DNA of 51,916 nt from Pseudomonadota bacterium. GTDB taxonomy: Bacteria; Pseudomonadota; Gammaproteobacteria; Acidiferrobacterales; Acidiferrobacteraceae. Made by a program: the position numbers and the translations under genes. The stretch spans positions 1-51,916 of the forward strand of contig JAKARW010000006.1 of assembly GCA_021819125.1 (NCBI GenBank), in the 5' to 3' direction. Below are positions 4,286 through 8,506 of the stretch, one piece after another (position 1 is the stretch's first letter; each line of letters begins with the position of its first letter). The notes beneath the pieces are model-generated. The model was not told the origin of the DNA, searched no databases, and saw only the letters and a list, made by a program, of their open reading frames with translations.

Positions 4286-4678
4286 TTAGCGCTTCGAGTA
4301 CTGCGGCCGCTTGCGGGCCTTATGGAGGCCGACCTTCTTGCGCTCGACCTCGCGCGCATCGCGCGTCAGAAAACCCGCGCGCCGCAACGGCAGGCGCAGC
4401 GATTCATCATAGGCCAGCAAGGCGCGCGCGATGCCGTGCAGCACGGCGCCCGCCTGGCCGCTTGGACCGCCGCCACGGACGTTCACCTTGACGTCAAAAT
4501 GATTCAGAGTCTCGGTCACCGCGAACGGCTGGCGCACGAGGGTGCGTGAAGTCTCACGCCCGAAATACTCATCGACGGGCCGGTTGTTGACCACAAACGC
4601 GCCCTTCCCGCGACTTAAGTACACGCGCGCATTGGCGGACTTGCGCCGCCCTGTCCCGTAATGCTTGGCTTCGGCCAT
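4286..4678 (-). CDS. rpsI: 30S ribosomal protein S9
   Basis: S9 is a small-subunit protein whose basic C-terminal tail reaches the P-site tRNA. The 130-residue product has the family signature: N-terminal [15 protein letters not shown], the [20 protein letters not shown] motif near residues 69-88, and the invariant tail [17 protein letters not shown]. Length and start are standard. It follows rplM by 9 bases, the universal L13-S9 operon order, and precedes tRNA-Gln. Confidence 0.98.
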
Positions 4679-4687
4679 ATCGGTTCC

Positions 4688-5125
4688 TTATCCCTTTCTC
4701 AATTCGAGCGGCTTGGGCTGCTGCGCCGTATGCTTATGAGCGCCGCCGGCAAAGACCTTCAGTTTGCGCAACATCTGGCGACCGAGAGGCCCCTTGGGCA
4801 ACATCCCGCGCACCGCCGCCTCGATCACCTCTTCGGGCGCGCGGGCCTTCATTTCCGTGAAGGTGTGCGTCTTCAACCCGCTCTGATACCCGGAATAGCT
4901 GTGATAGAGCTTGTTCTGGGCCTTGCGGCCGGTCACCTGCACCTTTTCTGCGTTGACCACGACGATATAGTCGCCGGTATCCACATGCGGCGTGAACTCA
5001 GCCTTATGCTTACCGCGCAGCCGACGCGCAAGCTCTGTGGCAAGGCGGCCCAACACATGATCCGTGGCGTCGACGACAAACCAGTCGCGCTTTACTGTCT
5101 CTGACTTAGCCGTGAAGGTCGTCAT
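4688..5125 (-). CDS. rplM: 50S ribosomal protein L13
   Basis: L13 is an early-assembly protein of the large subunit. The product has [19 protein letters not shown]-like N-terminal sequence ([19 protein letters not shown]), [18 protein letters not shown], and the family motif [16 protein letters not shown], with 145 residues against about 142 in E. coli. The frame is open further upstream, but ATG 5125 ([15 protein letters not shown]) fits the family start; the ribosome binding site is weak. A promoter is placed 38 bases upstream, and rpsI follows. Confidence 0.97.
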
Positions 5126-5162: not shown

Positions 5163-5191
5163 ATGGTACGGAGGAGCAGCCGCGCTGTCAA
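5163..5191 (-). promoter_or_regulatory. Sigma70-type promoter of rplM-rpsI
   Basis: On the minus strand TTGACA (5191-5186) is separated by 17 bases from TACCAT (5168-5163). The bases after the -10 are GCGGCCC, a GC-rich discriminator of the sort seen at stringently controlled ribosomal promoters. Transcription would start near 5156, giving a leader of about 30 bases before rplM. Confidence 0.65.
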
Positions 5192-5257: not shown

Positions 5258-5289
5258 AAAAAAAGAAGGCGTGGGGTAAACCACGCCTT
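5258..5289 (-). terminator. Intrinsic terminator of the candidate small RNA
   Basis: On the minus strand AAGGCGTGG and CCACGCCTT form a perfect 9-bp stem around TTTACC and are followed by CTTTTTTT. It lies between the promoter at 5364-5392 and the rplM promoter. Confidence 0.85.
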
Positions 5290-5357
5290 GAACCACCACT
5301 AGGAGGATGGAGGAGCCGGTAGGCAGTAGGGCTCGCGGCCCTTTCTGCAGAAAGCAT
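5258..5357 (-). ncRNA. Candidate small regulatory RNA
   Basis: A near-perfect promoter (5364-5392) would start a transcript at about 5357 that ends at a strong intrinsic terminator (5258-5289), a unit of about 100 bases with no good open reading frame. Visible structure in order: hairpin CUUUC-UGCA-GAAAG, hairpin GGGC-CGCGA-GCCC, an unpaired pyrimidine-rich stretch containing GCUCCUCC and AUCCUCCU, then the terminator stem. The two CCUCC stretches are complementary to Shine-Dalgarno sequences, as in several anti-SD small RNAs. The alternative is an rplM leader with an attenuator, but rplM has its own good promoter downstream of the terminator. Confidence 0.55.
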
Positions 5358-5363
5358 ATAATA

Positions 5364-5392
5364 ATTATCTAATATAAATCCCTCGCTGTCAA
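5364..5392 (-). promoter_or_regulatory. Strong sigma70 promoter of the candidate small RNA
   Basis: The minus strand reads TTGACA (5392-5387), a 17-base AT-rich spacer, then GATAAT (5369-5364): eleven of twelve consensus bases at optimal spacing. The local AT-richness stands out from the GC-rich surroundings. It faces rplM but is cut off from it by a terminator. Confidence 0.8.
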
Positions 5393-5423
5393 GGGGGTGT
5401 TCGTAACCTTGCATCGTAAGACC

Positions 5424-5456
5424 ACTAAAGGAGAGGCTGGTTCCCGGCCCCTCCTT
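5424..5456 (-). terminator. Probable terminator after the ferredoxin gene
   Basis: AAGGAG/CTCCTT plus a further 6-bp stem with a three-base loop lie directly after the ferredoxin stop codon. The T tract on the minus strand is short (TTT), while the plus strand has a longer one, so direction is uncertain. Confidence 0.45.
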
Positions 5457-5458
5457 TT

Positions 5459-5773
5459 TTAATCGCGGTCCAGGCGTAGCCGATCGACGGGCCGCCCGCC
5501 AATGACGTGCTGCTCCAGGATCTCGTCGATGTCCTCGCGGTCGACGTAGGTGTACCATACGCCGTCTGGATAAATGACAAGGACCGGCCCTTCCTCGCAA
5601 CGGTCCATGCAGCCGGCGGTATTGATGCGTACGCCATCCCGACCCGCAAGCCCCAGCGCCTTGATCCGCTCCTTGGCATAATCCCGCAAGGCGCGCGCGT
5701 CCTGCTGCTGACAACACCGCCGGCCGTCGGTACGCTCATTCGTGCAAAAAAAGACGTGCTGTCTATAGTACAA
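5459..5773 (-). CDS. [2Fe-2S] thioredoxin-like ferredoxin
   Basis: The 104-residue protein resembles the Shethna-type ferredoxins with thioredoxin fold, small electron carriers of unknown partner. Cysteines C10 (HVFFCTNER), C20 or C21, C55 and C59 (TAGCMDRCEEGP) match the four cluster ligands; VLVIYPDGVWYTYV and the closing HVIGGRPV are also typical. The only start that fits the family is TTG at 5773; no ATG is in frame nearby. The gene is divergent from the GlcF-like gene, with 9 bases between the two start codons, which suggests shared control. Its role could be to serve the neighbouring iron-sulfur oxidoreductase, but this is inference. Confidence 0.85.
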   Translation of the reverse strand: MYYRQHVFFCTNERTDGRRCCQQQDARALRDYAKERIKALGLAGRDGVRINTAGCMDRCEEGPVLVIYPDGVWYTYVDREDIDEILEQHVIGGRPVDRLRLDRD

Positions 5774-7039: not shown

Positions 7040-7675
7040 ATGAGAACATTCACCCGCATCGACCGCGTCATCGACCAACTCGACCAAACCCTGAAGTCTA
7101 TGCTCGTGCCACCACCTGCTGACCCCTACCCCGAGACCGTGCCGCGGGAACAGGGTGAGCTGTCATCCGAGGAGCGCACGCTCGGGGGCCGCCTCATGCG
7201 TGTCAACCATGCAGGCGAGATTGCCGCGCAAGCGCTCTATCAGGGGCATGCGCTGTGCGCACGGGATGCCCACGTGCGCGACACCCTACGCGCAGCCGGT
7301 CGTGAGGAGCTTCAGCACCTCCACTGGACGGCGGCGCGCATCAAGGAACTCAAGACACACAAAAGCTACCTCACGCCCATCTGGTATCTGGGGTCCTTCA
7401 CCATCGGGGCGGCGACCGCCCTACTGGGCGACAAGGTCAGTCTCAGTTTCGTCGCCGAAACCGAGCGCCAGGTCGTAGCCCATCTGCAAGACCATCTGGC
7501 CAAGCTTTCGGCCGCCGACCAAAGAACGCGGGCGATCGTAGAGCACATGGCCGCCGACGAGGCGCGACACGCGACCTCGGCCATGGAGGCCGGGGGGCGC
7601 CCCCTACCATGGCCGGCGCCGCTTGCGATGCGTCTGGCGGCGCGCGTCATGACCGAGACCGCATTCTGGATTTAG
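7040..7675 (+). CDS. coq7: Ubiquinone biosynthesis hydroxylase Coq7
   Basis: Coq7 is a membrane-associated di-iron monooxygenase that hydroxylates 2-polyprenyl-3-methyl-6-methoxy-1,4-benzoquinol, the next-to-last step of ubiquinone synthesis, using oxygen. The 211 residues contain the carboxylate-bridged iron ligands in MRVNHAGEIAAQALY, EELQHLHW, ETERQVVAHL and DEARHA. The conserved VNHAGE motif makes the call firm. ATG 7040 fits the family start (MRTFTRIDRVID). The stop overlaps the convergent VOC gene by 4 bases. It implies aerobic growth. Confidence 0.95.
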   Translation: MRTFTRIDRVIDQLDQTLKSMLVPPPADPYPETVPREQGELSSEERTLGGRLMRVNHAGEIAAQALYQGHALCARDAHVRDTLRAAGREELQHLHWTAARIKELKTHKSYLTPIWYLGSFTIGAATALLGDKVSLSFVAETERQVVAHLQDHLAKLSAADQRTRAIVEHMAADEARHATSAMEAGGRPLPWPAPLAMRLAARVMTETAFWI

Positions 7676-8097
7676 AGGCCTCGCCTCTCTTGCACGGCCG
7701 GGCTTAGGGCCTGCGGCGGCAGGAAAATCAGCTGGACGAGCGTACCTTCCGGGTCGTTGCAATAAAGACTGCGAGACCCGTCGCGATGAGTACGGGGGGC
7801 GGCTGCGATTCGCACCCGGGCGGCCTGCAGTCGCTCGTGCCAGACATCCACATCGCCTGCGCTTGCGACCGAAAATCCAATGTGATCGAGGGCGCCTCCC
7901 GGTTGCGGGGTACCTCGGTGCAGGGCGAGATTGTCCGAACCCGAGGAGAGATAGACGTTGTCGGGATCCGGCCGCCACACCACGACAAGCCCAAGGACCC
8001 CGGCATAGAATGCCTCGCAGGCCTCGAGATCCGCGCAGATGAGCGCCACATGGTTGAGGCGCACCGCGGCGGTCTTGGGCAAGCCGTTATTCGACAT
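7672..8097 (-). CDS. VOC-family protein (glyoxalase/dioxygenase fold)
   Basis: The vicinal-oxygen-chelate fold binds a metal with ligands from paired beta-alpha-beta-beta-beta modules. The 141-residue protein shows the usual pattern: VRLNHVALICADLEACEAFY at the start with a ligand histidine, GGALDHIGFSV in the middle, and YCNDPEGTLVQLIFL at the end with the glutamate. The substrate cannot be told from sequence; relatives include glyoxalase I, fosfomycin resistance proteins and extradiol dioxygenases. ATG 8097 overlaps the OsmC gene by 11 bases, so it is the last gene of the trpGDC transcript. Confidence 0.85.
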   Translation of the reverse strand: MSNNGLPKTAAVRLNHVALICADLEACEAFYAGVLGLVVVWRPDPDNVYLSSGSDNLALHRGTPQPGGALDHIGFSVASAGDVDVWHERLQAARVRIAAAPRTHRDGSRSLYCNDPEGTLVQLIFLPPQALSPAVQERRGL

Positions 8098-8506
8098 CCA
8101 CGATCTCGAATGAATGGCTGATCTCGGCGGTCTTGCCAAGCATGATCGACACCGAGCAATATTTCTCGGCGGACAGGCGGATCGCCCGCTCCACCGCCGC
8201 CTCCTTCAACCCTCGGCCGCTCACCACGAAGTGCACATGCATGCGGGTAAACACCTTCGGGTCCTCCTCGGCGCGCTCGGCCTCGAGGCGCGCGCTGCAG
8301 CCACGCACATCGGCGCGCCCCTTACGCAGGATATGGACGACATCAAAGGAAGTGCAGCCGCCCATCCCGGCCAACACAAGCTCCGTCGGCCGCGGCCCTA
8401 GGTTGCGCCCCCCATGATCCGGAGGGCCGTCCATCGCGATCCGATGGCCGCTCTCGGTGGTAGCCGTAAACGCGGCCTCCCCGTCCCACTCAACCACTGC
8501 TTTCAT
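8087..8506 (-). CDS. OsmC-family peroxide-handling protein
   Basis: OsmC/Ohr-type proteins reduce organic peroxides with a cysteine pair. The 139 residues carry C51 in GMGGCTSFDVVHIL and C117 in EKYCSVSIMLGKTAEI, the expected peroxidatic and resolving positions. The sequence is nearer the YhfA/OsmC-like branch than Ohr. ATG 8506 has GAGGAG at good spacing and overlaps the trpC end by 17 bases, so translation is probably coupled. Its presence in a trp transcript is unexplained by pathway. Confidence 0.88.
   Translation of the reverse strand: MKAVVEWDGEAAFTATTESGHRIAMDGPPDHGGRNLGPRPTELVLAGMGGCTSFDVVHILRKGRADVRGCSARLEAERAEEDPKVFTRMHVHFVVSGRGLKEAAVERAIRLSAEKYCSVSIMLGKTAEISHSFEIVDVE

Follow-up and report, generated by a model that had tools for sequence, protein, structure and literature searches.

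Introduction

The closest described relatives of the small RNA (sRNA) reported here are the RNAs of the Rfam family RF02278 (Betaproteobacteria toxic sRNA) and the double-hairpin RNAs ncS03, ncS05, ncS27 and ncS62 of Burkholderia cenocepacia (PMC4603805, PMC5688073), which occur in three to five copies. Overexpression of NcS27 results in slower growth (PMC5688073), and the RNA is described as aiding metabolic shutdown under nutrient deprivation. S17 of Bordetella pertussis is generated from a ~190-nt precursor through RNase E processing, is linked to BvgA and represses BP2158 through its CU-rich Site 1, which pairs with the leader/5′ UTR of the mRNA, as demonstrated by compensating mutations (PMC11722255); its overexpression in E. 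coli is hardly toxic. NmsRA and NmsRB of Neisseria meningitidis form a tandem pair regulated through RelA, and mutating either of their anti-Shine-Dalgarno (anti-SD) stretches abolished regulation (PMC5362039).

Here we analyse an sRNA gene located in a stretch of 51,916 nucleotides from a gammaproteobacterium of the Acidiferrobacteraceae (order Acidiferrobacterales), the whole of which will be referred to as the window. The predicted RNA aligns with RF02278 over its full length, shows the same succession of CUCCUCC, a CCUCC-loop hairpin and a terminator hairpin, and in some genomes shares the rplM-osmC neighbourhood with that family. Compared to RF02278, the loop is shorter, CUCCUCC is not preceded by UGU, a 5′ hairpin is added and the promoter is different, and the RNA is encoded by one copy only. 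With S17 it has in common two hairpins and CU-rich sites positioned as at the 5′ end of the short S17 form and in its first loop. The S17 gene adjoins coq7, which is also found near the sRNA gene in the window, and from the printed S17 reverse primer the sequence following the loop can be deduced as TGGTGGATTTAGCCCG, which is similar to TGGTGGTTCAAGGCG in the present RNA (PMC11722255). Unlike the processed S17, the RNA is predicted to be ~100 nt long as a primary transcript. The layout also resembles that of NmsRA/NmsRB, with three stem-loops and two anti-SD stretches, the first separating stem-loops 1 and 2 and the second located in loop 2 (PMC5362039), whereas the tandem arrangement of the Neisseria pair is absent from this genome, which has a single copy.

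Results and Discussion

Anatomy of the sRNA Gene

The features of the gene, which is predicted to lie on the minus strand, are collected in Table 1. Its promoter (TTGACA-17-GATAAT) matches the sigma-70 consensus in 11 of 12 positions, a score that was not reached in 200 shuffles of this upstream region; the shuffles in all promoter tests preserved base composition only. Folding the minus strand of 5258-5357 yielded three stem-loops, namely one at the 5′ end, a weak one in the middle and the terminator, with −35.5 kcal/mol, compared to −25.9 ± 3.1 for shuffled sequences (z −3.1). The first-pass annotation had proposed a self-contained gene consisting of a near-consensus promoter, hairpins and a terminator within about 100 bases upstream of rplM, and these elements were all confirmed. 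Both anti-SD stretches that it had placed in the unpaired part are present as well; the last bases of the first one reach into stem-loop 2, and the second one is situated mostly in the loop.

A small open reading frame starting with the ATG at 5357 was rejected, as length differences among relatives are frequently not divisible by three and it is not preceded by a ribosome binding site. The transcribed strand (5357-5258) does not contain GGA, so the repeated GGA in hairpin loops characteristic of CsrB/RsmZ is not found.

Table 1: Predicted features of the sRNA gene and its downstream neighbours (window coordinates).
Feature	Position	Strand	Remark
Complete sRNA gene	5392-5258	−	promoter, 5′ hairpin, CUCCUCC, small hairpin, terminator
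sRNA transcript region, about 100 nt	5258-5357	−	predicted start near 5357
−35 hexamer TTGACA of the sRNA promoter	5387-5392	−	inside TTGA-N13/14-TATtAG in 15/16 family members
Conserved promoter element TATTAGATAATTATTATA, possible operator	5357-5374	−	contains the −10 hexamer; sole exact match in genome
−10 hexamer GATAAT	5369-5364	−	17-base spacer from −35
5′ hairpin (stem-loop 1), sequence variable	5323-5348	−	fold and stem covariation in relatives
First anti-SD stretch CUCCUCC	5309-5315	−	invariant in 16 genomes, save first C in one
Second anti-SD stretch UCCUCCU, mostly in loop of stem-loop 2	5301-5307	−	invariant in family
Stem-loop 2: CCAUC/GGUGG, loop CUCCUAGU, CUCCU within loop	5293-5310	−	sequence comparison with relatives
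Intrinsic terminator (stem-loop 3), 9-bp stem, 6 G-C pairs	5266-5289	−	compensating stem changes in relatives
T run after terminator stem	5265-5258	−
Promoter-like site of rplM (TTGACA-17-TACCAT), 3′ of sRNA terminator	5163-5191	−	kept in family alignment
rplM (L13), downstream neighbour, ATG at 5125	4688-5125	−	neighbour conserved
rpsI, after rplM	4286-4678	−

Conservation and Covariation

The region 5′ of rplM was recovered by DNA search in 16 of the 18 genomes of the family; no convincing match was obtained in the remaining two, whose completeness is 77 and 80%. Across these 16 relatives hardly any change is seen in the core CUCCUCCAUCCUCCU..GGUGG, and the surrounding sequences differ. In the family alignment TCCTCCATCCTCCTAGTGGTGGTTC is invariant throughout the 16 genomes, representing three genera, and the 5′ hairpin is different in almost each of them. 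When the predicted structure was held fixed on this alignment, 93% of the cells were able to pair and eight pairs showed double changes, which none of 500 shuffles equalled; structures slid along the alignment paired at 41–52%. The core invariance and the covariation of the 5′ stem argue that the region is more than a chance arrangement, and both the covariation in relatives and the conservation of CCUCC, proposed earlier as checks, thus turned out in favour of the gene.

Stem-loop 2 does not vary inside the family, which therefore neither supports nor contradicts this hairpin. At its position, betaproteobacterial sequences carry CCACC/GGTGG and CCATGTC/GATATGG; judged from these alignments it is the same hairpin, its stem being identical or changed yet pairing. 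The terminator stem has diverged widely in distant relatives with pairing retained. Exact copies of the core were found in database records labelled Acidiferrobacterales, Acidiferrobacteraceae, Sulfuricaulis, Muproteobacteria, unnamed Proteobacteria MAGs and one Nitrospira MAG, and the genus of the window is probably Acidiferrobacter or a neighbouring one; a full-text literature search with the core sequence yielded no paper.

Relation to RF02278

A scan of the whole window with Rfam at gathering thresholds detected a tRNA as sole match. Using cmscan, the sRNA aligned with RF02278 at 30.6 bits (E 2e-4 for 401 bases), which does not reach the gathering score of 50. This alignment spans the whole model (positions 1-64), with hairpin 1 and the terminator hairpin both present, and it includes the two CU-rich anti-RBS stretches of the family, of which one is single-stranded and the other lies in the first loop. 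As some matches near 30 bits also occur in other genomes of the phylum, this score alone is weak.

As a second line of evidence, a model (R1) was built solely from the window's family. With R1, the RNA was detected in 46 of the order's 57 genomes and, at E ≤ 0.001, in 85 of the 369 genomes sampled from the class (one genome per species), usually 5′ of rplM. Twenty R1 loci, five from the order and 15 from elsewhere in the class, were then scanned with Rfam. RF02278 matched the place found by R1 in 19 of them (E ≤ 0.05), and tandem copies as well, with 31.1–48.7 bits and thus consistently below 50; for L077, a locus of the window's own family, no RF02278 match was listed at E ≤ 0.05. An intermediate locus, L039, scores 65.6 bits on RF02278 and carries both CTCCTCCATCCTCCTCCTTTGGTGGATTT and, upstream of it, the TATTAGAGAATTCTAATA element.

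Based on the distribution of R1 matches, the common locus and such intermediates, the sRNA is by homology a diverged relative of RF02278, and by Rfam's own rule it is not a member. The first-pass annotation had recognised no described family, which has to be revised in view of this end-to-end match and the shared locus. The seeming restriction of RF02278 to Betaproteobacteria is probably a threshold effect, since all RF02278 matches in the 20 loci of order and class fall below the gathering score.

Genomic Neighbourhood

The sRNA gene is separated from rplM by about 130 bases, and coq7 (7040-7675) and an osmC-like gene (8087-8506) are located nearby in the window. Outside the order, rplM was found within about 1.5 kb at 21 of 26 loci of the class scan, and several RF02278 genes above the cut-off lie between osmC and rplM or adjoin osmC and coq7. 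The synteny with rplM, kept in most genomes, would be expected if the sRNA and its terminator were a cis-acting leader or attenuator controlling read-through into rplM-rpsI. Such a function appears highly improbable, as rplM has its own conserved promoter-like site past the terminator, several genomes (loci L095, L097, L110, L113 and L118) have no rplM within the fetched 1.5 kb of the sRNA, one of them with three tandem copies, and some RF02278 relatives adjoin osmC/coq7 or other genes. Own promoter and terminator, independence of rplM in some genomes and the conserved core are in line with the earlier proposal of a self-contained gene for a C/U-rich anti-SD RNA, which probably acts in trans.

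The three copies at L097 (G621:C3:141743-142058) are arranged head to tail and resemble the tandem sibling RNAs of Neisseria. A further hairpin is present in the window at 5423-5459, between a ferredoxin-like gene and the sRNA promoter; its loop is GGGAACC in most of the family and its arms covary.

Promoter Module and Possible Regulators

Comparison of the upstream regions revealed a module, TTGACA-N12-TATTAGAnAAT, which at the sequence level is conserved across orders and is described here for the first time. In addition to the family members (Table 1), TTGA-N13/14-TATtAG was detected at 12 of 16 loci in the order's other families and at 11 of 26 elsewhere in the class, compared to 0.015–0.045 expected from shuffles, with the bases between TTGACA and TATTAG varying freely. 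In that form it was found at none of 21 RF02278 loci. The promoter element is TATTAGAnAATnnTnATA. In L039 it is a perfect dyad, TATTAGA-GAAT-TCTAATA, and this symmetry suggests that the element over the −10 region may serve as an operator. The L039 dyad, TATTAGAGAATTCTAATA, is situated about 40–60 bases 5′ of the core of an RF02278 gene above the cut-off and is the same element as in the window. Elsewhere in the window's genome two copies with one mismatch were found, which show no clear theme; one of them is located downstream of a spermidine-synthase-like gene. The other one (L162, 1501-1518) immediately precedes an hdrC-like gene, close to DsrE/TusA-like genes.

A 6-1-6 palindrome, GATAATTATTATA, overlaps the −10 region, its centre base is variable among relatives, and the genome contains two genes of the Fur family. 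GATAAT-N-ATTAT might thus be read as a Fur box, and the sRNA as iron-responsive and repressed by Fur at plentiful iron. We consider this unlikely: the other near matches in the genome are all inside long reading frames, with none being intergenic at iron genes, and in genomes outside the order TATTAG is retained and most right halves are not, so that in general the conserved element does not represent a Fur box.

In sister families the sigma-70 type promoter is located farther upstream, 124–166 and mostly 124–145 bases from the core. Most of these families have a second predicted site of the −24/−12 sigma-54 type at 71–84 bases from the core (e.g., TTGGCCCGAAGTTTGCT), with up to 13 of 14 consensus positions (p ≤ 0.02 by shuffling); this putative second promoter is also new here. 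Putative tandem promoters, with a proximal sigma-54 type site and, in most cases, a distal sigma-70 type site, were observed at the sister-family loci L078-L093, L135, L136, L146 and L149. The sigma-54-type site is absent from the window's family. Loss of rpoN was rejected as the cause, since 51 of the order's 57 genomes, the present one among them, have this gene.

Proposed Mechanism and Targets

We consider it very probable that the stand-alone sRNA gene represents a gammaproteobacterial branch of the RF02278/NcS27/S17 kind, which probably blocks translation by Hfq-assisted pairing with ribosome binding sites. Within this explanation, the anatomy, the covariation of the 5′ stem, the core invariance, the distribution, the common locus, the homology to RF02278, the promoter module and the presence of hfq in this genome were computed here. 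We infer that in this organism the RNA is expressed in response to a physiological signal and would bind Hfq; through its two exposed elements, the CUCCUCC separating stem-loops 1 and 2 and the CUCCU in loop 2, it would then pair with ribosome binding sites in a set of mRNAs, thereby blocking their translation and repressing them in trans. Judged from the relatives that have been studied, its targets are probably genes of transport and catabolism, which would be damped when growth slows.

Ribosome binding sites complementary to the sRNA over 8 bases (1.85 Mb, roughly called gene starts) numbered 27, compared to 26–38 for controls with similar CCUCC content, so that no particular group of targets emerged. 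One candidate leader is that of an alcohol-dehydrogenase-like gene (L294) with AGGAGGATGG before its ATG. This missing target excess would also suit a general Shine-Dalgarno decoy, in which the CCUCC stretches act as a translation brake without a specific target set. The core indeed complements Shine-Dalgarno sequences generally, and relatives are described as toxic or growth-slowing when overexpressed. S17 and NmsR, on the contrary, have been demonstrated by mutation to act on particular mRNAs, the low toxicity of S17 in E. coli does not fit a general brake, and the invariance goes past CCUCC into the stem arms, which together make a mere decoy very unlikely.

Significance

In Rfam and in the literature found, this RNA is regarded as betaproteobacterial. 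Our data point to a widely conserved anti-SD RNA of Gammaproteobacteria, which was missed there because its members score under the cut-off; in terms of sequence, the sRNA represents a branch of the NcS27/S17 kind that has diverged and is unannotated. The nearly invariant core over such distances argues for strong constraint. It is conceivable, though we regard it as doubtful, that the RNA is an ancient beta/gamma core regulator that has been kept next to rplM and osmC/coq7, controlled by a DNA-binding protein at −10 sites resembling TATTAGA-N4-TCTAATA, to which Sulfuricaulis-like families have added a sigma-54 promoter. If so, nitrogen or carbon status would set a brake on metabolism at the level of translation. 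Owing to the conserved promoter module, the search for the regulator is directly testable.
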